A stretch of 64,000 bases of DNA. Origin: Sinimarinibacterium arenosum. GTDB taxonomy: Bacteria > Pseudomonadota > Gammaproteobacteria > Nevskiales > Nevskiaceae. The translations under genes were made by a program, and so were the position numbers. The notes beneath the pieces were generated by a model. The model was not told where the DNA came from. It saw only the letters and a list, made by a program, of their open reading frames with translations, and did no database searches. The first letter of the stretch is position 1; every line of letters begins with the position of its first letter. Of this stretch, positions 4,663 to 52,647 are shown one piece after another. The DNA is taken from assembly GCF_005047655.1 (NCBI RefSeq), contig NZ_SUKF01000005.1, forward strand, positions 62,001 through 126,000, read 5' to 3'.

Positions 4663-4699
4663 GGGCGCGCCGGTTCACACCGTATTCAGAACGCCGGCC

Positions 4700-5359: not shown

Positions 5360-5440
5360 GCGCGGAGCGCGTTGATTAACCGTCGCCCGCCGAAAAGCCA
5401 GAGCGCTCCGCCGGCCGGGACAAGTAACGGCAGATTGGAC

Positions 5441-5470
5441 AAAAAAGGCGGCACGCTCGCGCGTGCCGCC
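5441..5470 (-). terminator. Rho-independent terminator of the M2 peptidase gene
   Basis: Perfect 10-bp inverted repeat (5447-5456 with 5461-5470, four-base loop). On the minus strand it is followed by six T (A-run at 5441-5446). It sits 41 bp past the minus-strand stop at 5512. It lacks a T-run on the plus strand, so it serves the minus-strand transcript. Confidence 0.9.
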
Positions 5471-5511
5471 CGGACTCCCCCCAACATTGCAGCCGCCCCG
5501 GCTGCGCCCCT

Positions 5512-7455: not shown

Positions 7456-7518
7456 ATTCTCCGGTTCTCATCATCGACAGGGCGCGCGGCATTGCTTCTG
7501 CCCAGAACGGTCCGCAAG

Positions 7519-9015
<1,497 letters not shown>

Positions 9016-9167
9016 CTATGGCTGCGAACTCGGTATCTGGTGGGTCCACCCGTGCCCACCATGCCGCGCGAGCTCCAGTGGGTCAATCGTGCGCTGCACT
9101 ATGCCGCCGTTGGCGCAACACGACCATGGGGAAAAACCCCCGCCCGTTCGCTGAACGTGGGCCTGAA

Positions 9168-9656
9168 TCAGGCATATCGCCATACGGCGATCAGCACTGC
9201 CGCCAGCAGCAACAGGGCGCCGGCCACCCAGATCCCGCCACGGCGCGAACGGGGCGTCGGTGTCTGCGGCGTCAGCACCCGGTCCAGGTGCTGGTCGAGC
9301 AATTGCGCATTGCGCTGATTGGATTTGAACGCGAAATCAGCCAGATCGCCGATCACCGGCACCAGGCCGATCAGCACATCAAACAGGACATTGCCCAGCA
9401 TCCGCAGCTGCAACCGCGTTGGTGCACCGATACGCGCGCCTTCGAACAAGAAATAGGCGCCCATCAACAGGCCGAACAGGTCCCCAACCACTGGCACCAG
9501 ACCGATCAGCCCGTCCACGCCGAAACGCCAGCGAGTGCCCGGAACACCGATGCCGCTGTCAAGGATTCGCGCCACTTTGTGCAAGCGCGCACGCAGGGCA
9601 TGCGCCTCCAAATGGTGCGTCGGAGGTGAAGCGGAAGGAGTGCTGGATGACGTCAT
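9168..9656 (-). CDS. DUF4112 small membrane protein
   Basis: 162 residues. After a polar N-terminus come two similar hydrophobic hairpins: DGLIGLVPVVGDLFGLLMG and DVLIGLVPVIGDLADFAF. The repeat of GLVPV(V/I)GDL is the signature of DUF4112. A third, well-defined membrane segment ends the protein (GIWVAGALLLLAAVLIAVW). Function unknown. The open frame extends far upstream, antisense to plsB; I chose ATG 9656 because the family starts close to the HALRARLHKVARILDS helix. It is divergent from plsB across about 100 bp. Confidence 0.85.
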   Translation of the reverse strand: MTSSSTPSASPPTHHLEAHALRARLHKVARILDSGIGVPGTRWRFGVDGLIGLVPVVGDLFGLLMGAYFLFEGARIGAPTRLQLRMLGNVLFDVLIGLVPVIGDLADFAFKSNQRNAQLLDQHLDRVLTPQTPTPRSRRGGIWVAGALLLLAAVLIAVWRYA

Positions 9657-9758
9657 TCGGTCAAAGGTCCTGCGGTACACTGGCTGCGATTCAATACAAC
9701 AAGATACGGCGAAAACTCGCCGATCGTCCCCGGGGGGATCAACGGACGTGCTCGACTC

Positions 9759-12242
9759 ATGCGTGATCTGATCAATCGCATCACTTATTCTCTGGTGTGG
9801 TGGCTGTTCCGACCCTTTTCGCGTTCGTTGCGGTATTCCACCGCGCCGCATCCTCTGATCGAGGGTATTGGCCTGGATCCGGAAAAGCCGGTCGTCTTTG
9901 TACTGGCCAATCGTTCCTGGGCCGATCTGTTCGTGCTGGATCGCATCTGCAAGGATCTGGACCTGCCGGCCCCCAGCCGCACGGGATCCAATTTTCCGAC
10001 GCCCAATCGGGCTGGCGTGGTCTATATGCCGGCACTGCTCGAAACCCGCGTGCGCAACACCGATCTGTTGCGCCTGATCGAGACCGGCGTCGCCACGCAA
10101 AGCTTCGACGCGCAAATCGTACCGGTTTCGATCTTCTGGGGACGCGATCCGGGCAAGGAGACCAGCTGGTTCAAGCTGATTTTCGCCGACAACGTCCAGG
10201 CCGGTCGCGTGCAGAAGCTGTTCATCATGCTGGCCAATGGCCGCAACATCTTCGCCAACTTCGGCCTGCCGCTGAACTTCCGCGAACAGATGGACAAGGG
10301 CGCGGACGCGACCACGTCGATCCGCAAGCTGGTCCGCGGCCTGCACTTCCACTTCCTGCGCGCGCGCACCGCGGCTCTGGGCCCCACGCTGCTGTCGCGG
10401 CACGTTGTGATCGATTCGCTGCTCAATGCACCGGGCGTGCTCAAGGCGATCCAGCAGGAAGCTGACGCCGGATCGGCGCAACTGAAAATGCGCGCCTATG
10501 CACGCAAGTGCGCCGAGGAGATTGCCGCGGACTACGCCACCGCGAGCATCAGTTTCCTCGAGCGGTTCCTCAGCGTCGTTGTATTCAAGCGCGTGTTTTC
10601 CGGCATTGACGTACGCGGCCTCGACCGCGTGCGGGACTGGGCCCAGCAATACGAGCTGATCTACATGCCGGCCCATCGCTCGCATGCGGATTACCTGCTG
10701 CTGTCGTACTCGTTGTACCGCGCCGGGCTGGTTCCGCCGCATATCGCTGCCGGCGTCAATCTGAACTTCTGGCCTATCGGCGGACTGCTGCGCCGCTGCG
10801 GCGCGTTCTACATGCGCCGCAGTTTCTCGGGCGATCGCATCTATACCGCCGTGTTCCGTGCCTATGTCGACTCGCTGATCCAGCGCGGCTATTCAATCGA
10901 ATTCTTCCCCGAAGGCGGCCGCAGCCGCACCGGCCGCCTGCTCGAACCGAAAACCGGATTGCTGTCGATGGTGGTCGAGGCCGGCCTGAAGCAGCGCACG
11001 CGCAAGGTCATGCTGGTGCCGGTCTATATCGGTTACGACCGCTGCTGGGAAGTCGGCAGCTATTCGAAGGAACTGCGTGGCGCCAAGAAGCAGAAGGAGT
11101 CCGCCGAAGGCCTGCTCAAGGCCGGCAAGATCCTTGGCAAATCCTATGGCAAGGCCTACATCAACTTCGGCGAACCGCTGCCGCTGCAGGAATTCGCCGA
11201 CGAGCGTCTGCCGGACTGGCGTTCGCGCTTCGCCGCTGACCAGACGCCCGAGGGCTTCAAGGCTTTCGTGGCCGATATCGCCCTCGAAAATTCACGCCGG
11301 ATCAATCGTGCGGCCGTCGCCAACCCGACCGGCCTGGCTGCAGTTGCGCTGCTGTCGTCGCCGGAACGCGTGGTCTCGCACGACGAACTGATCGAGCAGA
11401 TCGGACACCTGATCTGGCTGCTCAAGGGCAGTCCCGACAGCCCGGATCGCTACATTCCCGAACCCGCGCCGCAAGCGGTGGTCGAGTCCAGCGCACCGAT
11501 CGCCCGCATGTCCAAGGTGTCTCACCCCTGGGGCAACCTCTACGGCATCAGCGCGCGCGACGCCGTCGCTTTGACCTACAACCGCAACAACATCCAGCAT
11601 CTGTTCGCGATTCCGTCGCTGATCGCCAACCTGTTCCGGACCCGGCTGCTGCTCAGCGACGAGGCCATCCTGACCGGGGTGCGCGCCTTGTACCCGTTCC
11701 TGCGGCGCGAGTTCTTCCTGCGCCCCGGCGTCGACGAAATCGAGGGCGTCGCCCGCGAGTGGATCACGGTCATGGTGCAGCTGGGACTGCTGTCGCGCGA
11801 GGGCGAACATCTGCGCCGCCCGGACGCCAGTGCTGCCGCCTACTCGACCCTGGCGATGCTGGGCCGCGTCCTTGGCGAAACCCTGGAGCGTTACTGCATG
11901 ACCGCGCTGCTGCTGGCAGAAGAACGCAGGACCGCCGGCCCGCTGCAACGGGTGCGTTTTGAGGAAGACTGCCGCCTGTTGGCCGAGCGCATGGCAATCC
12001 TGACCGGACGCGATGCCCCTGAATTCTTCGACAAGGCGCTATTCAAGAGCTACCTGAACACGCTGATCGAGATCGGGTTGGTGACCGATTCCGGCGAACA
12101 GGGTCTGGTCGTGGACGCGCGGATCGAACGTATCGCCGAGCGCTCGCAGGAGCTGCTGTCGGACGAAAGCCGGCAGATGCTGTTGCAGCTGCTGACCCGG
12201 CGCAAACACACGGAACCCGCCGCCCAAACCGCGGTCCATTGA
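9759..12242 (+). CDS. plsB: Glycerol-3-phosphate 1-O-acyltransferase
   Basis: Inner-membrane enzyme that puts the first acyl chain on sn-glycerol-3-phosphate in phospholipid synthesis. It is 827 residues, close to E. coli PlsB (about 807). The acyltransferase motif I HRSHAD has its His at residue 306 and Asp at 311. Motif III, EFFPEGGRSRTGRLL, follows at about 385, then the helical C-terminal region. The long N-terminal domain typical of PlsB (not of the short PlsC/PlsY enzymes) is present. No operon partner; a 10-bp perfect hairpin lies just after the stop. Confidence 0.96.
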   Translation: MRDLINRITYSLVWWLFRPFSRSLRYSTAPHPLIEGIGLDPEKPVVFVLANRSWADLFVLDRICKDLDLPAPSRTGSNFPTPNRAGVVYMPALLETRVRNTDLLRLIETGVATQSFDAQIVPVSIFWGRDPGKETSWFKLIFADNVQAGRVQKLFIMLANGRNIFANFGLPLNFREQMDKGADATTSIRKLVRGLHFHFLRARTAALGPTLLSRHVVIDSLLNAPGVLKAIQQEADAGSAQLKMRAYARKCAEEIAADYATASISFLERFLSVVVFKRVFSGIDVRGLDRVRDWAQQYELIYMPAHRSHADYLLLSYSLYRAGLVPPHIAAGVNLNFWPIGGLLRRCGAFYMRRSFSGDRIYTAVFRAYVDSLIQRGYSIEFFPEGGRSRTGRLLEPKTGLLSMVVEAGLKQRTRKVMLVPVYIGYDRCWEVGSYSKELRGAKKQKESAEGLLKAGKILGKSYGKAYINFGEPLPLQEFADERLPDWRSRFAADQTPEGFKAFVADIALENSRRINRAAVANPTGLAAVALLSSPERVVSHDELIEQIGHLIWLLKGSPDSPDRYIPEPAPQAVVESSAPIARMSKVSHPWGNLYGISARDAVALTYNRNNIQHLFAIPSLIANLFRTRLLLSDEAILTGVRALYPFLRREFFLRPGVDEIEGVAREWITVMVQLGLLSREGEHLRRPDASAAAYSTLAMLGRVLGETLERYCMTALLLAEERRTAGPLQRVRFEEDCRLLAERMAILTGRDAPEFFDKALFKSYLNTLIEIGLVTDSGEQGLVVDARIERIAERSQELLSDESRQMLLQLLTRRKHTEPAAQTAVH

Positions 12243-12250
12243 CTCGTGCG

Positions 12251-12276
12251 CGGTGCCCGGCAGATTCCGGGCACCG
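12251..12276. repeat. Perfect inverted repeat after plsB
   Basis: CGGTGCCCGG and CCGGGCACCG separated by six bases, 9 bp after the plsB stop and directly before a TATAAT box. There is no T-run, so it is not a classical terminator. It covers the -35 position of the fkpA promoter and could be a terminator stem, an operator, or both. Confidence 0.6.
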
Positions 12277-12279
12277 CGC

Positions 12280-12285
12280 TATAAT
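12280..12285 (+). promoter_or_regulatory. Candidate -10 box of fkpA
   Basis: Perfect TATAAT, 46 bp before the fkpA ATG. The expected -35 position holds no match to TTGACA and is occupied by the right half of the inverted repeat 12251-12276, so the promoter may need an activator or be controlled through that repeat. Confidence 0.5.
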
Positions 12286-12293
12286 CTGCCGCC

Positions 12294-12315
12294 GGGGCAC
12301 TTCGCCCCATTTTTT
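12294..12315 (+). terminator. Small leader hairpin with T-run before fkpA
   Basis: GGGGC (12294-12298) pairs with GCCCC (12304-12308) over a five-base loop and is followed by TTTTTT (12310-12315). It lies between the candidate -10 box and the ATG. It may end plsB read-through or act as an attenuator. The five-pair stem is short, so the call is tentative. Confidence 0.4.
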
Positions 12316-12330
12316 GTATCCCGGGGAATC

Positions 12331-13080
12331 ATGAACACATCAATTCGTTATCTGGCCGTCGCCTGCGCGCTGACGCTGGTGGCGGCGTGCGCCAAGCAGG
12401 AAACCGCTTCGACCGACCAGGCCAGCACTAATGCAACGCTGGAATCTGACGCGCAGAAGTTCGGCTATGCCATCGGCATCGATCTGGGCAAGTCCCTGCA
12501 GCCGGTCAAGGAAGACGTCGACATCACCGCGCTGAAGGCGGGCCTGGATGACGCGTTCGCCGACGGCGAGCCGAAGATGGACGACGCCGCACGTGAAGAG
12601 ATCAAGAACACCATCTCGCGCAAGATGCAGGAGCGTCAGGTCAAGCTGCGCGCCGACCAGGCCGCCAAGGCCGGTGCCGAGGGCGAGAAGTTCCTGGCCG
12701 ATAACGGCAAGCGCGAAGGCGTCAAGACCACCGATTCGGGCCTGCAGTATGAAGTCCTGACCGAAGGCGACGGCAAGCACCCGACGGCCGAAGACACCGT
12801 GACCGTGCACTACAAGGGCACACTGATCAACGGCGAGGAATTCGACAGCTCGTACTCGCGCGGCCAGCCGGTGACGTTCCCGCTGAAGAACGTGATCCCG
12901 GGCTGGACCGAGGGCGTACAGCTGATGAGCACCGGCGCCAAGTACAAGTTCTACATCCCGGCCAAGCTCGGCTATGGCGAGCGTGGCGCCGGCGTCAAGA
13001 TCGGCCCCAACGAAACGCTGATCTTCGAAGTCGAACTGCTGTCGTTCGAAGCGCCGAAGGCGGAAGGCGACGCCAAGTAA
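12331..13080 (+). CDS. fkpA: FKBP-type peptidyl-prolyl cis-trans isomerase, lipoprotein (FkpA/Mip-like)
   Basis: 249 residues. The lipoprotein signal ends LTLVAAC, so it acts in the periplasm or at the outer membrane as a folding chaperone. The Mip-type helical dimerisation domain spans residues ~40-130 (FGYAIGIDLGKSL, then charged helices). The FKBP domain occupies about 140-240, with VTVHYKGTLINGEEFDSS, IPGWTEGVQLM and FYIPAKLGYGERG covering the binding pocket. The ATG at 12331 has GGGG seven bases upstream; the open frame further up has no signal peptide. Followed by a strong terminator. Confidence 0.94.
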   Translation: MNTSIRYLAVACALTLVAACAKQETASTDQASTNATLESDAQKFGYAIGIDLGKSLQPVKEDVDITALKAGLDDAFADGEPKMDDAAREEIKNTISRKMQERQVKLRADQAAKAGAEGEKFLADNGKREGVKTTDSGLQYEVLTEGDGKHPTAEDTVTVHYKGTLINGEEFDSSYSRGQPVTFPLKNVIPGWTEGVQLMSTGAKYKFYIPAKLGYGERGAGVKIGPNETLIFEVELLSFEAPKAEGDAK

Positions 13081-13119
13081 GCCTCCTCCGGCCCCGTTCG
13101 CGGGGTGGATCCCAGGTTC

Positions 13120-13147
13120 AAAACGGCCGGCGCAAGCCGGCCGTTTT
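13120..13147 (+). terminator. Terminator of fkpA
   Basis: Perfect 12-bp stem (13120-13131 with 13136-13147) closed by a GCAA tetraloop and ending in TTTT, 40 bp after the fkpA stop. Confidence 0.85.
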
Positions 13148-13312
13148 GCGTGTGTCGTCCGTAACGACAGGTGATGACCCGGTTGCGGCGCGCCATAGCC
13201 ATCGGACCACACTTGGCCGTGGATGCTGTTGTCTGGGTCTGTCCGACTGCGGGCTCGCGAATCTGGCACCCGAGCGCAGCAGCATCCTCGTCGCGCCCGA
13301 CCGGCACGCATG

Positions 13313-13335
13313 AAAAAGGGCGCCCGCAGGCGCCC
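13313..13335 (-). terminator. Terminator of the DUF1329 gene
   Basis: GGGCGCC/GGCGCCC seven-bp stem with a four-base loop, followed on the minus strand by TTTTT (A-run 13313-13317). It begins 26 bp after the minus-strand stop at 13361. The 165 bp between it and the fkpA terminator hold nothing I can assign. Confidence 0.88.
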
Positions 13336-13360
13336 TGAATCACTCAAATGCTGCAACGAC

Positions 13361-14713
13361 TTACTTGGTCGCCTGTTTCTGCACGTTGCTGGGATCGAAG
13401 TACGACGGCTCGAACACGCGCTCGGCGGATTCCTCATCCTCGTTATTCATCGCCTGCACCAGATAGCGATTGTTCTGCATGTCGTAGATCGTCTCGATTA
13501 CCGGCGCCAGATACGGCTTGTCGTAAGCCTGGGCGACATGCGCTTCCTGCCAGCGCCACAGTTGCCCGCGACGGTCGTAAATATCGACCAGCGCGATCTG
13601 CCAGCTGTCTTCGTCGAAATAGAAACGACGCTTGGCATAGATGTGCGTTGTCGTCGGCTTGACCTCACCTTCGACAATCCAGACGCGATGCAGCTCGTAA
13701 CGCGCCAGATTCTGGTCAATGTGCCCTTTCTGGATGATGTCGCTGTACTTGTACTTGTCACTGTGGATCACGTACGCGTTGTAAGGGATGTACATCTCCT
13801 TCTTGCCTACGATCTTCCAGGTGTAACGATCGGTCGCGCCGTTGAAGGTATCGGTCTGGTCGTTGGTGCGCAGACCGTCAGCGCCGGTACCGGGATTGTC
13901 GTAACCGACATTGGGCGCTCGGCGCAGCCGCCGCTGGCCCGGGTTGTACTGCCAGGCGCGGCGCGGTTCCTTGACCTGATCCATCGTTTCATGGACCAGC
14001 GTGATGGTGCCCGCAAGACGCGGCGGTGCGGTCACCAGCTGCAGGAAATAGATGATGACGTTGTCCAGCGACGCCGGCGTCGCACCCTGCTTGCTATAGG
14101 TAAAGGTGACGTCTTCGCGGATCTTGACCAGGTTGTAGTTGCCCGATGCAGTCACTGCAGCCTGGTTGTTCCAGCGACGTGTACCCTGACCGCGATAACG
14201 CACCTTGTGGTTCCAAACCGGCTCCACACCCGACTTCGGGACGGGAAACGGCACACCAACGATTGCATTGATCAGAGCCTCGCCATTGCCGCCAAGTTCG
14301 GCTTCGAGCGCATTCTTGTAGGTTGCATCGTAGTAGAACTGCGGATACGCAGCGGTACGCCGCGTCGGGTACACGTTCATCTTGTAGGTGCCGGGAAACT
14401 TCTCCAGCATCGCCAGCTGACCTTCGCTCAGCTTGGCCTTGTACTGCGCCATGTTCTGCGCGGTGATGGTGAATTCGGGCTTGTCATCCGGAAACGGATC
14501 GCAGTAGCGACTGCCTTCGCCCTTGAAACACGCTGGCGCGGTGCTCAGTCCGCCGTCCCATGCCGGAATGGTTCCGTCCTTGTTGCCAGCGCGCTCTGCG
14601 CCCACCGGCGTCAGACCGGACTTCAGCTTTTCAGCTTCTTCCGGACTGATCTTGGCCAGTACCGGAAGCGCCACGAACGCCATCAGCAGCGCGATACACG
14701 ATGCGCTTTTCAT
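13361..14713 (-). CDS. DUF1329 periplasmic/outer-membrane lipid-associated protein
   Basis: 450 residues with a Sec signal peptide (MKSASCIALLMAFVALPVLA). The rest matches the DUF1329 pattern: an early PVGAERAGNKDGTIPAWDGG, then NAYVIHSDKYKYSDIIQKGHID and the late block ARYELHRVWIVEGEVK..HIYAKRRFYFDEDSW. Such proteins are usually paired with a DUF1302 outer-membrane protein and occur beside catabolic genes for hydrophobic substrates. No DUF1302 gene is seen here. The gene follows the ketone-catabolic operon on the same strand after 123 bp that contain a pentanucleotide repeat. Exact function unknown. Confidence 0.85.
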   Translation of the reverse strand: MKSASCIALLMAFVALPVLAKISPEEAEKLKSGLTPVGAERAGNKDGTIPAWDGGLSTAPACFKGEGSRYCDPFPDDKPEFTITAQNMAQYKAKLSEGQLAMLEKFPGTYKMNVYPTRRTAAYPQFYYDATYKNALEAELGGNGEALINAIVGVPFPVPKSGVEPVWNHKVRYRGQGTRRWNNQAAVTASGNYNLVKIREDVTFTYSKQGATPASLDNVIIYFLQLVTAPPRLAGTITLVHETMDQVKEPRRAWQYNPGQRRLRRAPNVGYDNPGTGADGLRTNDQTDTFNGATDRYTWKIVGKKEMYIPYNAYVIHSDKYKYSDIIQKGHIDQNLARYELHRVWIVEGEVKPTTTHIYAKRRFYFDEDSWQIALVDIYDRRGQLWRWQEAHVAQAYDKPYLAPVIETIYDMQNNRYLVQAMNNEDEESAERVFEPSYFDPSNVQKQATK

Positions 14714-43238: not shown

Positions 43239-43472
43239 CAGCATTGCCGTCACGCTCGGACGTGTCGGATGCGGTCCGGACCGGCGTCTTACCCCGTCGG
43301 CTCCATGACTTCGCGGATGAGTTCGACCAAGGCCCGCGAGCCCGCCCGTTGCTGGCGACTCGGCGGACGAGGGCGGTGCGCCCGCGCGTTGATGTGCCAT
43401 GCACACGGACCGACGTATGCTTCGCGACCAAGCCCTACACCGCGCGCCCGCCGCGCCGCCGATGTCGCACCC

Positions 43473-44747
43473 ATGTTTGGCAACAGCGAACCGAACAGTT
43501 ACCGCATCCTCCGCGTCCTAGCGCGGCTGCGCCTCGCAGTCGTACTGCTCCAGGCCGCAACGGTGGTGGCGGTCGGCCGCTACTTCACCGGTGATATTCC
43601 GGTGACGGCCATGCTGTCGATCCCGGCGAGCCTGCTCGGATGGAATGTGCTGGTGTGGTGGCGTCTGGGACGTTGGCGCTACGCTGCGCAGATCGAGGTC
43701 GTGGCCCATCTCGCAGTGGACATCGCCGCACTGACGGCGCTGCTGTGGCTGTCCGGCGGGCCCGGCAACCCCTTCGTTTCGCTGTACCTCCTGCCAATCG
43801 CACTGGCAGCAGCCAGTCTGTCGGCGCCCTATGCGTGGACCGTCATGGCGCTGTGCACCGGCGCCTACACGGGCATGCTGTGGGCCCATATTCACCCGAT
43901 GGATCTGCCGGGGGGTGAATTCTTCCACTGGCATGTTGTAGGTATGTGGGTCAATTTCGTGCTGGGAGCAGCGCTGCTGACCGGCACGCTGGGCGCGCTC
44001 GCAGCAGCACTGCGGCGGCGCGAGGCCGATCTGGCCACCGCACGCGAATCCGCCCTCCAGGACGAACGCATTCTCGCCACCGGCGCTCTGGCCGCGGGAA
44101 CGGCTCACGAGCTCAACACGCCGCTGTCGACGATGGCGGTCCTGATCGAGGAGCTGCGGCAGACCCAGCCGCAGGACGCCGACCTGCAGGACGACCTCGG
44201 GCTGCTTGCCGATCAGATCGAGCATTGCCGGCGCAGCCTGCGCAACATGCTGTCCGCCGCAGATCCGGCGCGGCATGGCCCGGAAGCGGCGAAATCCCTG
44301 CGCGAGTTTCTGCGCGCGACCTTCGATCGCTGGCGCCTGATTCGGCCCGAGCCGGACGTCGACGTGATCTTCGAGGATGACTTCCACGATCCGCGCGTGA
44401 TCCCGCAGCCGACGCTGGCGCAGGCACTGACGAACCTGCTCAACAACGCGGCCGATGCATCGGCCGCTCGCGGCAGCAACCACGTCGGCGTGCGTTGCCG
44501 GGCGAGCCGGGACTGGCTGAGCGTGACCATCGACGACGATGGCCCCGGCCTTCCGGAGCATCAACTCGAGTCCGCAGCGCGGGGACTGGCATCAACCAAA
44601 CCGGAGGGTTTCGGGCTCGGCCTGGTGCTGTCCAATACCAGCATCGCCCGGCTCGGCGGCGAGGTGCAGTTGTTCACCCGGCCGGAGGGCGGCCTGCGCA
44701 CACAGGTCCGGGTTCCGCTGTCGGCATTGCAGCAGACGCAGGGATGA
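43473..44747 (+). CDS. regB: RegB/PrrB-type redox sensor histidine kinase
   Basis: 424 residues, inner-membrane kinase of the RegB/PrrB/ActS family that responds to the ubiquinone pool and respiratory redox state. Six hydrophobic segments come first. The quinone-binding heptapeptide GGPGNPF is at residues 95-101, in a membrane loop. The H-box LAAGTAHELNTPLST has the phospho-accepting His at 212; Asn replaces the Gly more usual after HEL. The ATPase N-box LTNLLNNAADAS, the G-box DDGPGLP and FGLGLVLSN follow. Start taken at ATG 43473, where the membrane domain begins; the frame is open to 43107. The stop overlaps the regA start (ATGA). Confidence 0.93.
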   Translation: MFGNSEPNSYRILRVLARLRLAVVLLQAATVVAVGRYFTGDIPVTAMLSIPASLLGWNVLVWWRLGRWRYAAQIEVVAHLAVDIAALTALLWLSGGPGNPFVSLYLLPIALAAASLSAPYAWTVMALCTGAYTGMLWAHIHPMDLPGGEFFHWHVVGMWVNFVLGAALLTGTLGALAAALRRREADLATARESALQDERILATGALAAGTAHELNTPLSTMAVLIEELRQTQPQDADLQDDLGLLADQIEHCRRSLRNMLSAADPARHGPEAAKSLREFLRATFDRWRLIRPEPDVDVIFEDDFHDPRVIPQPTLAQALTNLLNNAADASAARGSNHVGVRCRASRDWLSVTIDDDGPGLPEHQLESAARGLASTKPEGFGLGLVLSNTSIARLGGEVQLFTRPEGGLRTQVRVPLSALQQTQG

Positions 44748-45283
44748 AGCCGCAGATCGATCCCATTCTGCTGGTCGAGGACGACCCGGTGTTCGCATCG
44801 GTACTTGCGCGCGCACTGCGTCGCCGCGGCTACACCGTCAGCATCGCCACCGATGTTGCACAGGCCCTGGTGATCATGCGTGAGACGTCACCGCGTTCGG
44901 CGGTCGTTGACCTGAAACTCGGCGAGGACTCCGGGCTCGCACTGATTCCGCAGCTGCAGGCACTCGCACCGCAGACCCGCATCCTGATGCTGACCGGCTA
45001 TGCCAGCATCGCGACCGCCGTCAGTGCGATCAAGAAAGGGGCATTCGACTACCTGCCGAAACCGGCCGGCGCCGACGCGGTGATTGCCGCGCTCACCGGC
45101 ACTGAGCGAACCGAGCCCGAGCCAGACGAACAGAGCGCTCTGTCGCCGCGCCGCCTGATGTGGGAGCACATCCAGCGCGTGCTCGCCGAACACGACGGCA
45201 ACATCTCCGCAGCGGCGCGCGCGATGGGCATGCACCGCCGCAGCCTGCAACGCCGGCTGGCCAAGCGCCCGGTCCAGCGCTAG
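44744..45283 (+). CDS. regA: RegA/PrrA-type response regulator
   Basis: 179 residues. Receiver domain with acidic pocket VEDD (11-14), phospho-acceptor Asp56 in VVDLKLGEDSG, and Thr/Lys in MLTGYAS and LPKPAGAD. A short linker leads to a Fis-type helix-turn-helix (HDGNISAAARAMGMHRRSLQRRLAKRP), nearly invariant in RegA/PrrA/ActR. It binds GCGNC-spacer-GNCGC sites. A 17-bp palindrome of exactly that pattern begins 15 bp after its stop. Co-translated with regB. Confidence 0.95.
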   Translation: MKPQIDPILLVEDDPVFASVLARALRRRGYTVSIATDVAQALVIMRETSPRSAVVDLKLGEDSGLALIPQLQALAPQTRILMLTGYASIATAVSAIKKGAFDYLPKPAGADAVIAALTGTERTEPEPDEQSALSPRRLMWEHIQRVLAEHDGNISAAARAMGMHRRSLQRRLAKRPVQR

Positions 45284-45298
45284 CGCCGTCACGGCGCT
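45282..45298. repeat. Palindrome at the regA stop codon
   Basis: AGCGCCGT-C-ACGGCGCT, 8-bp arms, beginning inside the TAG stop and abutting the next palindrome. Possible short terminator stem for regBA; no T-run. Confidence 0.5.
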
Positions 45299-45314
45299 GC
45301 GACAATTTGTCGCA
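45298..45314. promoter_or_regulatory. Predicted RegA/PrrA binding site
   Basis: TGCGACAATTTGTCGCA is a perfect palindrome (8-bp arms, one central T). It contains GCGAC-N5-GTCGC, matching the known RegA/PrrA pattern GCGNC-spacer-GNCGC. It lies between regA and the TonB receptor gene, 206 bp before the receptor's likely start, so it could control the receptor-chelatase operon. Confidence 0.7.
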
Positions 45315-45519: not shown

Positions 45520-47688
45520 GTGAACATCGAATCTTCCAAACGCCGCGCCGGGCACCCCCGGCGCGCCGGCATCTCTCGGCGCTCGCCCTGGATGGGCGCG
45601 GCCGCGCTCACGCTCATCGCCGGTCTGGCGCATGGTCAGGAACTGCCCGCCGACACCGAGGCGGCAGCGGAGACGCCGGCCACGTCCCTCGACACCGTCA
45701 CCGTCACCGCCACGCGCAGCGAGCGCTACAGCCGCGAGGTCACCGAGTCGATTGCGGTGATCGACGAAGCGCGCATAGAGGCGGCCCCGATGTTCAACGT
45801 CTCCGACGCATTGCGCGGCACCCCCGGAGTGCTGATCGAATCGATGAACGGCGGCTACGACGCGCGCATCTTCATCCGCGGTGCCGGCCTCAAGGCGAAC
45901 TACGGCGTGCGCGAACTGATGCTGCTGCGCGACGGCGTACCGGTGACCGATCCCGACAGCTTCACTCGGCTCGACTTCGTCGACACCCAGGACATCCAGC
46001 GGATCGAGGTGGTCAAGGGGCCGGGCAACATCTACGCCACCGGCTCGGCCGGCGGTGTCATTCACCTGATCAGCCGCTCCGTCTTCGACCGCGGTGCTGA
46101 CCAGATCAAGCTCGGCATCGGCGACTACGGCGCGCGCAACCTGCACGCGCGTATCGGTCGCGATATCGGATCGCGGCAGGCGATGTCGCTCACGCTGTCC
46201 TATCGCGAGAAGAACAACGACTGGCGCCCGCAGAATGCGTTCGAGACCGTCAATGCCGCACTCAAGCACGGAATCACGTTCGACGACGGCGCCGTGCTCG
46301 AATCCGAACTCGCTTACAACGACGCCAGCCTCGAACTGCCCGGCTCGATGAACCAGGCCCAGTACGACGAGTATCGTCGCACCGGCGAGCAGACCGACAA
46401 CAACACCGCGTTCGACGACAGCGGTCGCTATTCGGAGACGTGGTCGTTCAACAGCCGTTACCTGAAGCCCGTCGGCGCGGCGCTCGTGTTCAGACCGCGC
46501 GTGTACGCCGCCTATTGGCAGCATCTGCATCCGATCACCGGCCAGATCAGCGAGGTGCCGCGCAACCTGATGCTCGGCACCGATCTGGAATTCGCACACC
46601 GTCACCAGCTCCTCGGCCTGTCCGAACTCGTCGCCGGCGTCACGCTGCGGCGCGATGACGGTGACAGCCGCAGCTACGAGTACGGTGACGTCCAGACCAT
46701 CCCGTCGGGCCGCATCATCGCGACGCGCTCCGACCGCAGGGGCGATCTCGCCGGCACCAGCCAGACCACCAACGACGTTCGCGGCATCTTTGCCCAGGAA
46801 ACGGTACGCCCCGCCGACGGCTGGCTGATCGACCTAGGCTTCCGGCTGGACCGTATCAGCATCAACGAGGACGCCGACGAGCGCTCGACCTACGACTTCG
46901 TATCCGGAACCTATGTCGACGGCGCCGGCACCACCCGGCTGAATCAGGCCTTCGACCTGTTCAACGCCCGCCTCGGCGCGAACTACGCATTGAGCGAGAC
47001 GCTCAATCTGTTCGGTGTCGTCGCCCAGGGAGAGCAGGTGCCGTACTCCAGCGAACTGGCGGACAACCCGGCGCTCAACCCGGCCACCGTGCGCAACGTC
47101 GAGATCGGTCTAAAGGGGCGCGCCCGACACTGGGCCTTCGACATCTCGATGTTCCAGATGAAGGTCGAGGACGAGATCATCCAGGTCCTCGAGGACGTCA
47201 ACGACACCAGCTTTCAGAACGCAGGACGCACCGACAAATCCGGCGTCGAGCTGGCCAGCAACTTCGAACTGACCGACGGACTCTGGGCCGGGTTCAACTA
47301 CACCTACAGCGACTTCCGCTACGACGATTTCGTCGAAGTCGTCAGCGGCACCGAGTTCGACCGCTCCGGCAACCGCCTGCCGCAGATTCCGCGCCACCAG
47401 TACAGCGTGTTCGCCAGCTACCGGCACCCGATCGGCGTCAGCGCGCGCGTCCAGACTGATACCTGGGGCGAGTACGAAGTCGACAACGCCAACAGCGAGA
47501 CCTTCGACGGCTACGACTGGGTCACCAGTCTGGACCTGGCCTACGAGACCGGACCGCACAAGGTGTCGGCGCATGCGCAGAACCTGTTCGACGAGCGCTA
47601 CGCGGTCCGCGTCACCAAGTCGCGCGAGCTCGCGTACACCCCGGGAGCGCCACGCTCGCTCCTGATCAGCTACCGCTACCAGTTCTGA
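45520..47688 (+). CDS. TonB-dependent outer-membrane receptor
   Basis: About 722 residues. The TonB box/plug begins DTVTVTATRSERYSREVTESIAVI; the plug continues through LRGTPGVLIESMNGGYDARIFIRGAGLK and IERIEVVKGPGNIYATGSAGGVIHLI-type sequence (here IQRIEVVKGPG). The barrel ends in aromatic SYRYQF. The signal peptide is clear (MGAAALTLIAGLAHGQE), but the start is not. GTG 45520 supplies the needed Arg/Lys-rich n-region, whereas ATG 45592 would leave it without positive charges. No clear Shine-Dalgarno. It is the first gene of a four-gene unit with its own ExbB-like motor, a DUF2149 protein and a CobN-like protein. The ligand is probably a tetrapyrrole, cobalamin or other metal chelate. Confidence 0.88.
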   Translation: MNIESSKRRAGHPRRAGISRRSPWMGAAALTLIAGLAHGQELPADTEAAAETPATSLDTVTVTATRSERYSREVTESIAVIDEARIEAAPMFNVSDALRGTPGVLIESMNGGYDARIFIRGAGLKANYGVRELMLLRDGVPVTDPDSFTRLDFVDTQDIQRIEVVKGPGNIYATGSAGGVIHLISRSVFDRGADQIKLGIGDYGARNLHARIGRDIGSRQAMSLTLSYREKNNDWRPQNAFETVNAALKHGITFDDGAVLESELAYNDASLELPGSMNQAQYDEYRRTGEQTDNNTAFDDSGRYSETWSFNSRYLKPVGAALVFRPRVYAAYWQHLHPITGQISEVPRNLMLGTDLEFAHRHQLLGLSELVAGVTLRRDDGDSRSYEYGDVQTIPSGRIIATRSDRRGDLAGTSQTTNDVRGIFAQETVRPADGWLIDLGFRLDRISINEDADERSTYDFVSGTYVDGAGTTRLNQAFDLFNARLGANYALSETLNLFGVVAQGEQVPYSSELADNPALNPATVRNVEIGLKGRARHWAFDISMFQMKVEDEIIQVLEDVNDTSFQNAGRTDKSGVELASNFELTDGLWAGFNYTYSDFRYDDFVEVVSGTEFDRSGNRLPQIPRHQYSVFASYRHPIGVSARVQTDTWGEYEVDNANSETFDGYDWVTSLDLAYETGPHKVSAHAQNLFDERYAVRVTKSRELAYTPGAPRSLLISYRYQF

Positions 47689-47696
47689 GGCCGGTC

Positions 47697-48275
47697 ATGT
47701 TCGAGTTGGCTCACCAAACCGCGCAGATTCTGCTGTGGCCGACGCTGCTGGCGATCGACGTGCTGTTCGCGTACGCCCTGGTCGAGGCGGGACGCTTCGC
47801 CGTGCAGAGCGTCCAACGCCGTCGCGCCCGCGCCGACTGGCAGCGCTTCGTCGACACCGGCGGCCCCGGCGCGATTCCGATCCGCGGCTATCCCGTTGCG
47901 GCCCTGTTCGCATCCGACACCGGCCTGCGCCTGCACCAGGCCGAGGTCTTCGCGCTCAAGCGACTCGAAGCGGTCCGCGTCGTCACCCGCGTCACGCCGA
48001 TGCTCGGGCTGGTCGCCACGCTGATCCCGATGGGCCCCGCGCTGATCGCGCTGAGCGAGAACAACGTCTATGCGATGGGCGAACACATGCGCACCGCGTT
48101 CACCGCGGTGATCCTGGGGCTGGCCACGTCGGTGATCACCTTCTGGATCGCCAGCGTGCGCAAGCGCTGGTACGCCGAGGAGATCGTCGCGCTGGAGCCG
48201 CTGCTCAAACGCACCGGGGACACGCCCGCAAGGACCGCAACCGAAGGGCGGCACCCGCACAGGGAGGCCGCCTGA
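47697..48275 (+). CDS. MotA/TolQ/ExbB-like proton channel protein
   Basis: 192 residues. One N-terminal membrane segment (LLWPTLLAIDVLFAYALVEAG), a cytoplasmic stretch, then two more (RVTPMLGLVATLIPMGPALIAL and HMRTAFTAVILGLATSVITFWIASVRKRW). The TPMLGLVATLIPMGPAL and AFTAVILGLATSV segments are the pore helices of the ExbB/TolQ family. It starts 9 bp after the receptor stop and overlaps the next gene by 1 bp (TGATG). It probably pairs with the DUF2149 protein, which would take the ExbD role, to energise the receptor or the chelatase. Confidence 0.88.
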   Translation: MFELAHQTAQILLWPTLLAIDVLFAYALVEAGRFAVQSVQRRRARADWQRFVDTGGPGAIPIRGYPVAALFASDTGLRLHQAEVFALKRLEAVRVVTRVTPMLGLVATLIPMGPALIALSENNVYAMGEHMRTAFTAVILGLATSVITFWIASVRKRWYAEEIVALEPLLKRTGDTPARTATEGRHPHREAA

Positions 48276-48589
48276 TGACCCTGCGCATTCTCGACGAGGA
48301 CGAGGAGCTCAATCCGATTCTCTCGGTGGTCAATCTCATCGATGTCTTTCTGGTGCTGGTGGCGGCACTGCTGATCATTATCGCCCGCAATCCGCTGAAC
48401 CCCTTCAGCAGCGACGACGTGACGGTGATCAAGAACCCGAACACCCCGCAGATGGAGATGCTGGTCAAGAAGGGCGAGAAGATCGAGCGCTATACCGCCA
48501 GCGAGGCGATCGGCCAGGGCGAGGGCAGCCGGGCCGGCGTCGCCTACCGGCTGAAGGACGGGTCCTTCATCTACGTTCCGGAGCAATGA
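48275..48589 (+). CDS. DUF2149 small membrane protein
   Basis: 104 residues. A short cytoplasmic N-terminus (DEDEELNPILSVVNLIDVF) runs into a single membrane helix (FLVLVAALLIIIA) and a C-terminal domain outside (VTVIKNPNTPQMEMLVKKGEKIERYTASE..SRAGVAYRLKDGSFIYVPE). One helix with an Asp at its start is the ExbD/TolR layout, so a motor partner for the ExbB-like protein is plausible. DUF2149 genes are known beside MotA/TolQ/ExbB and CobN-like genes. Confidence 0.82.
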   Translation: MTLRILDEDEELNPILSVVNLIDVFLVLVAALLIIIARNPLNPFSSDDVTVIKNPNTPQMEMLVKKGEKIERYTASEAIGQGEGSRAGVAYRLKDGSFIYVPEQ

Positions 48590-48593
48590 GCCA

Positions 48594-48624
48594 TCCGGCC
48601 CGTCCGGCCCACGGACGGGCCGGA
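48594..48624. repeat. 13-bp perfect hairpin between DUF2149 and CobN-like genes
   Basis: TCCGGCCCGTCCG pairs with CGGACGGGCCGGA over a five-base loop. It starts 4 bp after the DUF2149 stop and ends 39 bp before the chelatase ATG. No T-run. It may protect or partly stop the upstream message, lowering chelatase output. Confidence 0.65.
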
Positions 48625-48663
48625 CGCAGTCGTTTGAACATTGACCGATATCGAGGTTCTTCC

Positions 48664-51600
48664 ATGCGTCTTCTGATCGCCCTGGCCTGCCTGTGCCTGC
48701 CACTGCTCACCTGGGGCGCCGAACCACCCAGCGTGCTGATCGTCGCCGGGTCGGCCAGCGAGCCGGCGAAGCTGCGCATGCTGCTCGAGCTGGGCCGCGA
48801 CGCCGGCCTGCGGGTCGACACCGTCAACACCGCCGGCCAGGATCCCGAACGTCTCGGCCAGCGCATGCTCGGCTACGACGCCGTGCTGCTGGATTACGTC
48901 TACATGGGCGCGCTGATGCCGGTGATCAACAGCTATCGCGGCGTGCTGGCGCGGCATCCCGGCATAGTCTTTCCCGGCCTGATGTGGCGTGACCCCAGCC
49001 TGGTCCGCGGACTGTCGCCGGAGCAGGCACGGACGCTGTTCGCGTACTACGACAACGGCGGCCGCGAAAACTACCGCCGCATGTATGCCTGGATGCGGCA
49101 CACGCTGCTCGGACAGGGGGACGCGGCGGCGCCGCCGATCGTCTATCCGGACGCCGGCTACTACCACCCGGACTATCCGCAGCGCGTCTTCGCGAGTCTG
49201 GAGGCACTGCTGGCGTGGCGCGCGCCCGCCGGCGGCCAGCCGGTGATCGGCGTCGGCCTGCACCGCACGGTGCTGGCGGCCGACACCACGATGAGCGTCG
49301 ATGCCGTGATCCACGGGCTCGAAGCCAGCGGTGTCTATGCCTTCGGCTACTACCACGACACCACCCAGCCGATGGCGCCGATGATGCGGCGCGACGGCGC
49401 CGTCTTTCCCGACCTGCTGATCAGCTTCCGCGGCATCATGACCAGCCCGGACCTGCGCGCCGCCGAACTCGCCGAACTCGACGTGCCGATGCTCGATGCC
49501 CTGGACGTGCGCATGGATTCGCTGGAGCAGTGGATGGCGGACGATCAGGGCTTCCCCATGTTCGCGATGGGGCCCTGGTTCGTCCAGGCCGAGATGGCCG
49601 GCATGATCGACCCGACGGTGATCTCGACCCGCACCCTCGACGACGGCCATGTACTGGTGCCCGGACATCTCGAGTCGCTGGTACAGCGCAGCCTCAACTA
49701 CATCAAGCTGCGGCGCACGCCCAATGCCGACAAGCGCCTGGCGATGCTGGTATGGAACTCCCCGGAGGGCGAGGAGAACTTCAGCGCCTCGTTCCTCAAC
49801 CTGCCGGAGTCGATCGTCGGCATCGAGACCGCACTGCAGCAGGCCGGCTACCGCATCGAACCGCGCGACGGCGAGCAGATCGTCCAGGCCCTGCAGTCGA
49901 TGATGCGGCCGTACTACCGCGTGCACAGCGAGACCGCGATGCGCGAACTGCTGGCGCAGGATCTGGCCGAGGCCGTGCCGGTCGCCGAATACCGGGCATG
50001 GTTCGAGTCGCTGCCCGAATCGGTCCGCAGCGAAACCATGGCCGCCTGGGGCGACCCGGCGCAGACGTATCTGAACCTCGATCTCGACGGCAAGCGGGTG
50101 TTCGTGATCCCACGACTGAAACTCGGCAATCTGCTGCTGCTGCCGCAGCCGCTGCGCGGCGACAAGCGCGACCGCGAGAAGGACATCCTCCACGACAAGC
50201 GTGTGCCGGTGCACCACGCCTACCGCGCGGTCTATCACTATCTGGTCCACCACTACCGCGCCGACGCGATCATTCACCTCGGCACGCACGGCACCCAGGA
50301 GTGGCTGCCCGGCAAGGAGCTCGGGACCTGGAAGTACGACGACACGCAGACCACGGTTGGCAACGTCCCGGTGATCTACCCGTACAACGTGCAGAACGTC
50401 GGCGAGGCCCAGATCGCCAAGCGCCGCGGCCGCGCGGTCGTGATCTCGCACAACACCCCGCCGTTCGCGCCGGCCGGTCTCTACGACGAGCTCACCGTGC
50501 TGCACGAACTGACCCACAACTACCGTCTGCTCGAAGACGGCCAGGTCCGGCAGAACACCGCCGGCGAGATCCTCGACAAGCTGGTCGAGCTCGAACTGGA
50601 CCAGGATCTGGCGCTGGACGTCGCACGCGAGCGCGAGGCACTGCTGGCCGATTTCCAGCCGGTGTTCGAGCGCGTGCACGCCTACCTGGAGCAGATCGCC
50701 GGCATGGCGCAGCCGCTGGGCATGCATACCTATGGCGAGGTCGCTGAGACCGACCACGTCCTGCTGACAATCCTGCAGATCCTGGGCCCCGACTACATCG
50801 CCGCCGCCGAGCGCAGCGCTGGCGTCTCCGCCGGCAGCGACGGCTTCTTCACACGCCCGTATGCCGAGATCCTGGAAACCGCGAGCTTCCGGTTGCTCAA
50901 GCGCGCACTGACCGGCGATGAATCGCTGGATGCCTTCGATCCGGCGATCCGCGATCAGCTCGCTGAGGGGCGGCGCCATTACGCCAACTTCCTCGGCGAA
51001 CGCGAGATGGAGCATCTGCTGGCGGCACTCGAAGCGCGTTACATCCCCACCGGCACCGGAAACGACCCGCTGCGCAATCCCGACGCGGTTCCGACCGGAC
51101 GCAACGTTTTCGCGTTCGATCCCGACAAGATCCCGACCCGGGCCGCGTGGAACGCCGGCCAGACGCTGGCGCAGGATCTGATCGATACCTACAAGGCCAA
51201 GCACGGCGTCTATCCGGACAAGCTCGCGTTTTCGCTGTGGTCCACCGAGACGCTGAAGCACTACGGCGTGCTCGAAGCCGAGGTTCTGTACCTGCTCGGC
51301 GTGCGCCCGGTGTGGAACCGGCGCGACGACGTGGTCGACGTCGAGGTCATTCCGATGAGCGAGCTCAAACGGCCGCGCGTCGATGTGGTGCTGTCGGCCA
51401 CCGGCCTCTATCGGGACAATCTCTCGCCGGTGATGGACCGGTTGTCGCGCGCGGTGCTCAAGGTCGCCGCGCTGGCCGAGCCGGACAATCCCCTGCACGC
51501 CAACGCCGAAGCCCTGCGCCGGCAGCTGATCGAACGGGGGCTCGCGCCCGAACAGGCCGAGCGCCTGTCGCGCGTGCGCATGTTTGCCAATCAGTCCGGG

Positions 51601-52584
51601 GTCTACGGCACCCAGCTGCCCGACGCGACCCTGGCGTCCGACACCTGGGAGGACGAAACGCCGCTGGCGCAGACCTACCTGTCGCGCATGGGCTACCTGT
51701 ACGGCGCCGAGGACGGCACCCGCAACGTCAAGCTCGACGACATCGACCTGTATGCCGAGAACCTGCGCGGTACCAAGGCCGCGGTGTTCTCGCGCTCGTC
51801 CAACCTGCACGGCATCCTGTCGATCGACCATCCCTTCGAGTATCTCGGGGGCATCGGCCTCGCAGTCCGCCACCTCGACGGCAGCACTCCGGACATGTAC
51901 ATCTCCGACCTGCGCAACAGCCGCGACTTCCGCAACGACACCGTCGCCGACTTCATCAGCAAGGAACTGCGCACCCGCTACTACCATCCACGCTGGGTTG
52001 CCGAGATGATGGCCGACGGCTACTCCGGCGCCAACGAGATCCTCGACGTGGTCAACAACTTCTGGGGCTGGAACGTCATGGATCGTGACAGCGTGCGCGC
52101 CGACCAGTGGCAGGCGCTCTACGAGATCTACGTCGAGGACCGGCTCGAGCTCGGCGTCGACGAATGGTTCAAGCAGGTGCATCCTGCAGCCCGCGCACAG
52201 ATCGCCGAACGCATGCTCGAGGCCGTGCGCAAAGGCTACTGGGATGCCCCGGACGCAGTCGTCCGGCGCCTGACCGAGGTCTGGCTGGAGATCGCCGAGA
52301 ACCGCGACCTCTATACCGAGAATCAGGTGTTCAAGGACTACGTCGCCGCCACCGCCGCGGGCTTCGGCCTCGACCCCGGCCCCGCCCGGCGCGATCCACA
52401 GTCCAGCGCCGAAGCGGCGCCCGAGTCGACTCAAACAGTCGAGGGCATCCGACTGGAACGCACCGCATCGACCGAGACCGAGCCGGAGCCGCGGCACTGG
52501 CTGCTGCTCGCGCTGCTGCTCGGTCTGTTCCTGATCGGCGCCATGCACGAACACTGGCGCGGACGCCCAGTGGCGCCGGTCTGA
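48664..52584 (+). CDS. CobN-like metal chelatase, exported and membrane-anchored
   Basis: About 1306 residues, the size of CobN/BchH large chelatase subunits. The core carries the family motifs IIHLGTHGTQEWLPGKELG near residue 536 and PTGRNVFAFDPDKIPTRAAW near 808. Unlike cytoplasmic CobN it begins with a signal peptide (MRLLIALACLCLPLLTWGAE). It ends with a linker and one membrane helix (WLLLALLLGLFLIGAM, ~1280-1295) followed by a short basic tail, so the large domain should face the periplasm. No CobS/CobT or BchI/BchD ATPase genes are nearby. With the receptor and ExbB-like genes it resembles the HmuS-type proteins of Bacteroidetes heme loci, which I recall being linked to iron removal from heme. 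Start chosen for the signal peptide and GAGG eight bases upstream; the frame is open from 48586. Confidence 0.87.
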   Translation: MRLLIALACLCLPLLTWGAEPPSVLIVAGSASEPAKLRMLLELGRDAGLRVDTVNTAGQDPERLGQRMLGYDAVLLDYVYMGALMPVINSYRGVLARHPGIVFPGLMWRDPSLVRGLSPEQARTLFAYYDNGGRENYRRMYAWMRHTLLGQGDAAAPPIVYPDAGYYHPDYPQRVFASLEALLAWRAPAGGQPVIGVGLHRTVLAADTTMSVDAVIHGLEASGVYAFGYYHDTTQPMAPMMRRDGAVFPDLLISFRGIMTSPDLRAAELAELDVPMLDALDVRMDSLEQWMADDQGFPMFAMGPWFVQAEMAGMIDPTVISTRTLDDGHVLVPGHLESLVQRSLNYIKLRRTPNADKRLAMLVWNSPEGEENFSASFLNLPESIVGIETALQQAGYRIEPRDGEQIVQALQSMMRPYYRVHSETAMRELLAQDLAEAVPVAEYRAWFESLPESVRSETMAAWGDPAQTYLNLDLDGKRVFVIPRLKLGNLLLLPQPLRGDKRDREKDILHDKRVPVHHAYRAVYHYLVHHYRADAIIHLGTHGTQEWLPGKELGTWKYDDTQTTVGNVPVIYPYNVQNVGEAQIAKRRGRAVVISHNTPPFAPAGLYDELTVLHELTHNYRLLEDGQVRQNTAGEILDKLVELELDQDLALDVAREREALLADFQPVFERVHAYLEQIAGMAQPLGMHTYGEVAETDHVLLTILQILGPDYIAAAERSAGVSAGSDGFFTRPYAEILETASFRLLKRALTGDESLDAFDPAIRDQLAEGRRHYANFLGEREMEHLLAALEARYIPTGTGNDPLRNPDAVPTGRNVFAFDPDKIPTRAAWNAGQTLAQDLIDTYKAKHGVYPDKLAFSLWSTETLKHYGVLEAEVLYLLGVRPVWNRRDDVVDVEVIPMSELKRPRVDVVLSATGLYRDNLSPVMDRLSRAVLKVAALAEPDNPLHANAEALRRQLIERGLAPEQAERLSRVRMFANQSGVYGTQLPDATLASDTWEDETPLAQTYLSRMGYLYGAEDGTRNVKLDDIDLYAENLRGTKAAVFSRSSNLHGILSIDHPFEYLGGIGLAVRHLDGSTPDMYISDLRNSRDFRNDTVADFISKELRTRYYHPRWVAEMMADGYSGANEILDVVNNFWGWNVMDRDSVRADQWQALYEIYVEDRLELGVDEWFKQVHPAARAQIAERMLEAVRKGYWDAPDAVVRRLTEVWLEIAENRDLYTENQVFKDYVAATAAGFGLDPGPARRDPQSSAEAAPESTQTVEGIRLERTASTETEPEPRHWLLLALLLGLFLIGAMHEHWRGRPVAPV

Positions 52585-52616: not shown

Positions 52617-52647
52617 CAGGTCCGCCACTGCCGCAGTGGCGGACCTG
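52617..52647. repeat. 14-bp perfect hairpin after the CobN-like gene
   Basis: CAGGTCCGCCACTG and CAGTGGCGGACCTG with a three-base loop, 32 bp past the stop. No T-run follows; likely the end-of-operon stem (RNA 3'-end protection or factor-dependent termination). Confidence 0.6.

Follow-up and report, generated by a model that had tools for sequence, protein, structure and literature searches.

The subject of this analysis is a four-gene cluster of Sinimarinibacterium arenosum (assembly GCF_005047655.1) that encodes an exported CobN-like protein next to a TonB-dependent receptor, an ExbB-family protein and a DUF2149 protein. The cluster occupies positions 45520-52584, on the forward strand, of a stretch of 64,000 nucleotides (contig NZ_SUKF01000005.1, positions 62,001 to 126,000), referred to here as the window. 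The four genes are closely ordered and each of them has a Pfam match above cut-off. The first one (45520-47688, GTG start) encodes a TonB-dependent outer-membrane receptor of 722 residues with a plug (PF07715, 9.1e-21) and a beta-barrel (PF00593, 1e-37), a class also supported by NCBIfam and solved-structure matches. It is followed by a MotA/TolQ/ExbB-family inner-membrane protein of 192 residues (47697-48275; PF01618, 9.8e-8, 32.2 bits, cut-off 22.9) and by a DUF2149 protein of 104 residues (48275-48589; PF09919, 6.9e-29), whose ATG overlaps the ExbB stop codon. The last gene (48664-52584, with an alternative ATG upstream at 48586) encodes a CobN-like chelatase of 1306 residues (PF02514, 3e-298, 993 bits) that is predicted to be periplasmic and to carry a C-terminal membrane anchor. 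Beyond the 3' end of this gene lies a hairpin (52620-52644) whose 11-bp stem pairs perfectly. An earlier reading made from the letters alone (the sequence-only reading) had described this gene content as well as a signal peptide, intact CobN motifs and a C-terminal helix in the CobN-like protein; all the genes were found at those positions with Pfam support, and the protein features agree with sequence, hydrophobicity and a motif table.

Related loci were collected by a DUF2149 profile search, from which the best 80 of 481 confirmed loci were kept. ExbB is present in 79 of these 80 loci, CobN in 70 and a TonB receptor in 64; in the 50 loci with enough flank (at least 9 kb on the left and 6.5 kb on the right) the corresponding counts are 50, 48 and 46. 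Receptors were sought with 13 chosen query receptors, and therefore some may be missed. For the phylogeny, L001, L011 and L014 were removed because they were duplicate or fragmentary, open reading frames (ORFs) below 1000 residues were excluded, and rows with at least 80% identity were collapsed, which reduced 84 rows to 67. In the resulting tree, 54 membrane-anchored CobN-like proteins are separated from 13 rows (CobN, ChlH and L013) with a branch support of 98, and in a smaller tree 24 anchored rows are separated from 8 cytoplasmic ones with a support of 99. When L128, L130, L131 and L134 were added, CobN and ChlH fell on one side (98) and L128, L130 and L131 attached beside them weakly (76), which leaves it unproven that the anchored group arose only once. 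The window protein belongs to a seven-row clade (clade I, support 100) with members from Methylococcales, Chromatiales, other metagenome-assembled genomes (MAGs) and Rhodoplanes, and the nearest named relative of its locus is a near-identical sister in a Nevskiales MAG (L032). This clade is a separate, mainly proteobacterial branch apart from HmuS. The phylogeny with HmuS and CobN called for by the sequence-only reading thus sets the protein apart from CobN and ChlH but does not group it with HmuS: a single clade of clade I and HmuS, with their common active-site motif DHxxE acquired by common descent, is rejected (approximately unbiased test, p-AU 0.00025, for a group that was chosen after the trait was seen). 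At the distribution level, a CobN-family protein occurs in 2 of 11 sampled genomes of the genus (own included) and DUF2149 in 17 of 398 genomes of a phylum sample. In a class sample of 369 genomes (own included), the window protein scores above 890 bits in seven and no higher than 321 in any other; three of the seven have DHxxE (own, L145 and L150) and four DDxxQ. L013, from a genome of the same family (G011), is a CobN-family protein on a long branch; it has no membrane ends and shares 31% identity with that of the window. L128-L132 contain a divergent DUF2149 subtype, whose C-terminus ends in GKLILI, together with longer CobN-like proteins (ORFs of 1433-1568 residues).

The CobN-like protein starts MRLLIALACLCLPLLTWGAEPP, which is signal-peptide-like; from sequence and hydrophobicity this N-terminus corresponds to residues 1-19, MRLLIALACLCLPLLTWGA (48664-48720), and hydrophobicity places the C-terminal membrane helix at residues 1278-1294 (52495-52545). 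Cytoplasmic CobN and ChlH, by comparison, insert metals in an AAA+ ATPase-dependent manner. With one simple hydrophobicity cut-off for all rows, an N-terminal segment is called in 6/7 rows of clade I, 20/20 of clade II, 22/22 of clade III, the single Runella and T. lovleyi rows (1/1 each) and 3/3 HmuS rows, and a C-terminal helix in 6/7, 15/20, 20/22, 1/1, 1/1 and 3/3 of them, respectively. Neither segment is called in CobN (0/7), ChlH (0/5) or L013 (0/1), so that anchors are present in 0/12 CobN and ChlH rows, unlike in the window protein. At the fold level, an AlphaFold model of residues 22-1217 (predicted local distance difference test, pLDDT, 87.8; predicted template modelling score, pTM, 0.85) retrieved HmuS 9d26 as the best Foldseek match (2.2e-78, template modelling score, TM, 0.81), followed by CobN 7c6o (4.6e-76, TM 0.82), with which the protein also has the GTHG/GKHG histidine in common. 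Sequence comparison ranks HmuS first (3.5e-139, against 1.6e-113 for ChlH and 1.2e-106 for CobN), at an identity of 25-26% to the three Bacteroidota HmuS rows. With the NCBIfam model NF004644, named 'cobaltochelatase subunit CobN', the window protein (ORF at 48586-52581) reaches 1304 bits and so exceeds the cut-off of 1248, and the L035 protein also passes it; automatic annotation will therefore probably misname this family as a B12 enzyme.

The active-site residues are intact in the window protein. His542, in the GTHG motif (50287-50289), and Glu581 (50404-50406) are equivalent to HmuS His538 and Glu577 according to the structure-search alignment and the motif table, and the motif table identifies Asp1055-His1056-Pro-Phe-Glu1059 (51826-51840) as the HmuS-type second active-site motif, DHxxE (His, with Glu three positions on). 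Equivalents of His538 and Glu577 are found in 67/67 tree rows, and the complete set (HmuS His538, Glu577, Asp1208, His1209 and Glu1212) in 7/7 clade I rows, the window included. DHxxE characterises clade I (7/7) and HmuS (3/3) and is also found in L034, L145 and L150, whereas Asp replaces His1056 in clade II (20/20), clade III (22/22), Runella, T. lovleyi, CobN (7/7) and L013; ChlH has His in 3/5 rows and Thr in 2/5. Because the joint grouping of clade I and HmuS is rejected, descent as sister groups does not account for the His that they share; over 27 rows, the fewest changes at this position are 4, and gain and loss are indistinguishable. The window clade might have arrived independently at its HmuS-type bis-histidine site, a rather doubtful proposal that is part of the view of motor and chelatase as one unit discussed below. 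In a separate case, L133 (7919-11866), a membrane-anchored CobN-like protein lacks both active-site histidines in the alignment and has Met at the His1056 position; it may be a degenerate member that only binds, or the alignment may be wrong here.

Regulatory sites were compared at the promoters of 75 of the 80 loci, five being excluded for a gene start less than 200 bases from the locus end. Promoter starts were set by rule, the start of the later gene being used where a gap exceeded 1200 bases (L034 was scored at CobN), and the shuffles preserved base content, not dinucleotide content. Scored against a consensus, Fur-like sites at up to three mismatches occur at 27/75 related promoters against 2.6 expected, and at up to two mismatches at 12/75 against 0.3 expected. 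An iron context is also given by HmuS operons, which hold kin of the module. In addition, two operons of the window type contain redox genes, Fer4_5 and PepSY_TM between receptor and CobN in L034 and Fer4_5 after CobN and receptor in L174. These redox proteins fit the HmuS likeness, since heme de-chelation by HmuS has been demonstrated to be NADH-dependent and to need no ATP (PMC12583661).

The sequence-only reading had reported no AAA ATPase partner genes nearby, and inspection by eye of the ORFs at 40-58 kb revealed none either. The two AAA_lid_2 matches of the genome lie on other contigs, in ORFs that both read as MoxR beside DUF58-like genes; this AAA_lid_2 search found no CobS/ChlI-type partner in the genome, the Mg_chelatase and CobT families not having been searched. 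The only CobN-family match and the only DUF2149 match of the genome are those of the window locus. There is no CobB/CobQ above cut-off (GATase_3 is under it) and no PF01126 heme oxygenase, other heme-degrading families not having been searched. A FeoB-like gene is present, as are PepSY_TM proteins elsewhere in the genome, two of them above cut-off, and 10 ExbD-family matches outside the locus, some of which are fragments.

These results establish a real, conserved operon of the known HmuS/BtuS-like kind, in a distinct clade that lacks the defining features of HmuS itself and keeps the catalytic histidines. As in the hmuYRSTUV systems (HmuS of B. thetaiotaomicron and P. gingivalis, the latter treated in PMC13227078, and BtuS2 of B. 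fragilis), an anchored periplasmic CobN-like protein of the same fold and with the same active-site residues is encoded with a TonB receptor, an ExbB-family protein and DUF2149. The operon is very likely a periplasmic (de)metalation module, and removal of the metal is favoured over its insertion with reasonable confidence. That it combines uptake with periplasmic metal removal, whichever the metal, is somewhat more likely than not. Iron porphyrin (heme or a relative) is the favoured substrate, because DHxxE resembles HmuS, whereas Asp takes the place of His1056 in the six B12-linked rows examined, although we would put it at a little under an even chance. In the proposed mechanism, the TonB receptor, energised by the ordinary TonB/ExbB/ExbD systems of the genome, would bring a metal-macrocycle complex across the outer membrane. 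The CobN-like protein would then strip the metal in the periplasm in an HmuS-like manner, the freed ferrous iron would enter through FeoB, and ExbB-DUF2149 may hand proton-motive force to the CobN-like protein, replacing the AAA+ ATPases of the cytoplasmic chelatases.

Several observations weigh against this reading of an HmuS-like enzyme acting on iron porphyrin. The fold alone does not decide between HmuS and CobN, given TM scores of 0.81 and 0.82. The methionine-rich insertion in domain IV that belongs to the definition of HmuS (PMC12583661) is absent, as the stretch from GTHG to PTGRN has 270 residues and 3 Met in the window protein, against 323-510 residues and 11-35 Met in the three HmuS rows. 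The head/neck heme ligands of HmuS, Met79 and His254 (in His-Gly-Arg), are replaced by V and G, and neither equivalent is present in any clade I row (0/7); L115, one of the three HmuS rows, also lacks M79 in the alignment. The other conserved HmuS cleft residues (Ser1014, Ser1067, Gln1198, Ser1199 and Trp1202) point neither way, 2/5 being identical in the window (S, T, S, S and H). The hmuYRSTUV operon is incomplete in the window, with R-, S-, U- and V-like genes present and no HmuY or HmuT match at 1e-8 (one Bacteroides query each), and the receptor is of another class. At the regulation level, Fur-like sites at up to three mismatches are found in 0/7 window-clade loci, and the promoter of the sister L032 has none (best 6 mismatches). 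Clades II and III, which hold the Fur-like sites, carry Asp in place of His1056, and this residue alone therefore does not identify the metal. Finally, neither redox protein of L034 has a match in the window. The interpretation first drawn from the sequence therefore stands in part: uptake, periplasmic metal handling, the HmuS comparison and the failure to find an ATPase partner are retained, and the protein is not simply HmuS, being a separate branch with no HmuS insertion and no head/neck heme site. Its choice of a metal-tetrapyrrole or corrinoid substrate is narrowed, DHxxE favouring iron porphyrin and the B12-linked rows having Asp.

Two roles can be envisaged for the ExbB-DUF2149 pair. 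The first, that it drives the chelatase itself, as the sequence-only reading had suggested, is put forward tentatively, because the apparent operons of L116 (T. lovleyi) and L134 contain a complete TonB-ExbB-ExbD set besides ExbB-DUF2149. According to the second, which approaches an even chance, the pair would energise only the receptor of the operon through TonB and the chelatase would be motor-free. This is the published assignment of HmuU/HmuV (PMC10100974, PMC12583661), and recombinant HmuS, expressed heterologously, is reported to convert heme by itself with NADH (PMC12583661), so that a motor is unneeded in vitro. The complete sets of L116 and L134 argue against a role confined to the receptor, and so do the 10 ExbD-family matches elsewhere in the genome, some of them fragments. 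The occurrence of DUF2149 in an archaeon points in the same direction: among 14 control genomes, a match was obtained in Methanosarcina acetivorans and in no other. Archaea have no outer membrane. The archaeal evidence consists of this one match and of a table in PMC10100974, in which HmuV is present in Methanomicrobia; in addition, two BtuS proteins are described for Methanosarcina barkeri in PMC10846266, whose authors state that the other genes of the operon are missing there.

At the structural level, alignments and AlphaFold give DUF2149 a single membrane helix (model residues 14-38) followed by a small beta domain, with N20 and L21 invariant and D23 near-invariant in the helix. The idea that the pair drives the chelatase is, besides the published assignment and the in vitro activity of HmuS, weakened by several results. 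The AlphaFold model of DUF2149, with an overall pLDDT of 68.6 and a value of about 96 for residues 21-30, is not strong enough to be used in a fold search. Although HmuV is asserted to be similar to ExbD in PMC10100974, DUF2149 shows no significant similarity to ExbD profiles (hhalign probability 4.2, over 26 membrane-helix columns), and homology to ExbD was dropped for lack of support. In a mirror-tree comparison over 44 loci, CobN distances follow those of ExbB (Pearson 0.88, Spearman 0.77) better than those of the receptor (0.772 and 0.54), which speaks for the motor; by Pearson, however, DUF2149 (0.765 and 0.66) does no better than the receptor, and the differences may reflect only receptor swapping. 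In its broadest form, the proposal makes of ExbB-DUF2149 a proton-driven motor that serves a periplasmic chelatase exclusively, a counterpart of the AAA+ ATPases, refitted to varied receptors, regulons and metals (iron, cobalt, zinc and perhaps nickel), archaea included; we regard it as rather unlikely. If the pair did drive the chelatase, an ExbB-type channel would be put to a use not expected of it, and it would become possible to test what powers ATP-independent de-chelation. In the literature searched, which left most subscription journals outside its coverage, no paper on the window's clade and no proposal that ExbB-DUF2149 drives a chelatase was found.

Regarding the substrate, the cargo could be a non-tetrapyrrole metal chelate of the siderophore or zincophore type from which the CobN-like protein extracts the metal, and this is improbable. 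It is supported by the receptor, which counts against iron porphyrin: the closest solved relatives are YncD (9.5e-30) and PqqU (2.3e-29), the best NCBIfam model is TonB-siderophore (158.7 bits, under the cut-off of 223.5), and matches to heme and B12 receptors are far weaker. The receptor also has the sequence DTVTVTA at residues 58-64, which resembles a TonB box. Moreover, P. aeruginosa PA1922-PA1925, a similar set of receptor, CobN-like protein and two more genes, is Zur-regulated (PMC4542158, PMC8531726, PMC13083405). PMC4542158 labels PA1924 as ExbD and PA1925 as hypothetical, and the match of all four gene types is inferred from Pseudomonas gene order (e.g., L056); the Pseudomonas relatives sampled (L056, L058, L067 and L068) belong to clade III with DDxxQ, unlike the DHxxE of the window. 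Against such a chelate, the CobN-fold enzymes characterised in the cited papers act on tetrapyrroles, the window keeps the active-site histidines of HmuS, and Zur-like sites are not enriched (4/75 against 6 expected at up to three mismatches, in a consensus scan that lacked a positive control).

A corrinoid substrate is less probable still. In this case the module would salvage cobalamin or cobinamide, with cobalt moved in or out in the periplasm as in the BtuS family, which is treated in PMC6460266 (BtuS1/BtuS2) and was classified as a third CobN type (Rodionov 2003, as cited there). Like the window protein, BtuS proteins are exported, membrane-anchored and predicted to act in metalloporphyrin salvage; unlike it, they have been studied in Bacteroides, and the window clade is a distinct branch. 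Relatives do occur in B12 loci, some under cobalamin riboswitches: the T. lovleyi plasmid operon (L116) has two, and its lack of CobS/CobT homologues was already noted by the authors of PMC3403914. The modules of L128 and L130-L132 adjoin CbiA and CobO genes, with riboswitches in L128 and L130. L134 (G314, 508-14095) runs on one strand through a cobalamin riboswitch, receptor, DUF2162, ExbB, DUF2149, a periplasmic-binding-CbiZ fusion, CobN, CbiK, a periplasmic-binding protein, ExbB, ExbD and TonB, with two ExbB-type pairs within one apparent operon. However, L128-L132 and L134 all have Asp at the His1056 position, with B12 genes seen for all except L129, and so does L116. No cobalamin riboswitch was found in the window, in the ten loci L032-L041 or in L042, the genome has no CobB/CobQ over cut-off, and the receptor is far under the cut-offs of the BtuB models.

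That the protein works in the opposite direction, loading metal in the periplasm into a macrocycle that arrives free, is very improbable: CobN and ChlH insert metals and have the fold and His542 in common with the window protein, but HmuS, the anchored relative that has been characterised biochemically, removes iron, the operon contains an import receptor, and the search for an ATPase partner that could drive insertion found none. The reading as a normal B12-synthesis cobaltochelatase subunit has next to no chance despite the NF004644 match, and the window protein is not a B12 cobaltochelatase, because it carries an export signal and a C-terminal anchor, and stands apart from CobN and ChlH in the tree, and because no AAA partner was found beside its gene, no CobS/ChlI-type partner among the AAA_lid_2 matches of the genome and no CobB/CobQ over cut-off. 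The odds given to these various explanations are not mutually exclusive.

Heme de-chelation has been shown only recently and in Bacteroidota (PMC12583661). The present locus and its kin suggest that the same type of machine occurs across Proteobacteria for several metals, and we read the module as a reused periplasmic metal-stripping machine, here probably for iron porphyrin. HmuY, HmuT and HmuV have been called diagnostic of heme transport in PMC10100974, where a few Hmu-like operons with cobalamin riboswitches were noted; the riboswitch operons L116 and L134, which do not come from Bacteroidota, add weight to the view that DUF2149/HmuV is not restricted to heme. In L114 (Runella slithyformis pRUNSL01, 5197-13231), receptor, ExbB, DUF2149 and CobN genes lie between hypA, hypB, hypF and hypC, hypD, hypE, which suggests that the Runella module is a nickel version. 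Hydrogenase-maturation matches also occur in L060 (14004-17373); some 4 kb separate their start from the module, which is of clade III, and HypD, the sole hyp match among the listed ORFs, is encoded on the opposite strand, so L060 was not counted as a nickel link.

The immediate surroundings of the window locus contain histidine kinase and response regulator genes upstream on the same strand (about 43434-45283). The best NCBIfam model of the response regulator (44744-45283) is ActR/PrrA/RegA, at 182.6 bits and under the cut-off of 250. Directly after this RegA-like regulator gene lies the palindrome TGCGACAATTTGTCGCA (45298-45314), which may be an operator or a terminator, in a block that is conserved in the sister genome. 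A RegA-type operator was considered at this position and dropped as evidence because the bare pattern is not enriched in the genome (5 per strand, against 4 for a reversed control). RegB/RegA-like two-component genes (3291-5146) also occur in L175, a DHxxE-type locus, about 2.5 kb from the module and on the other strand.

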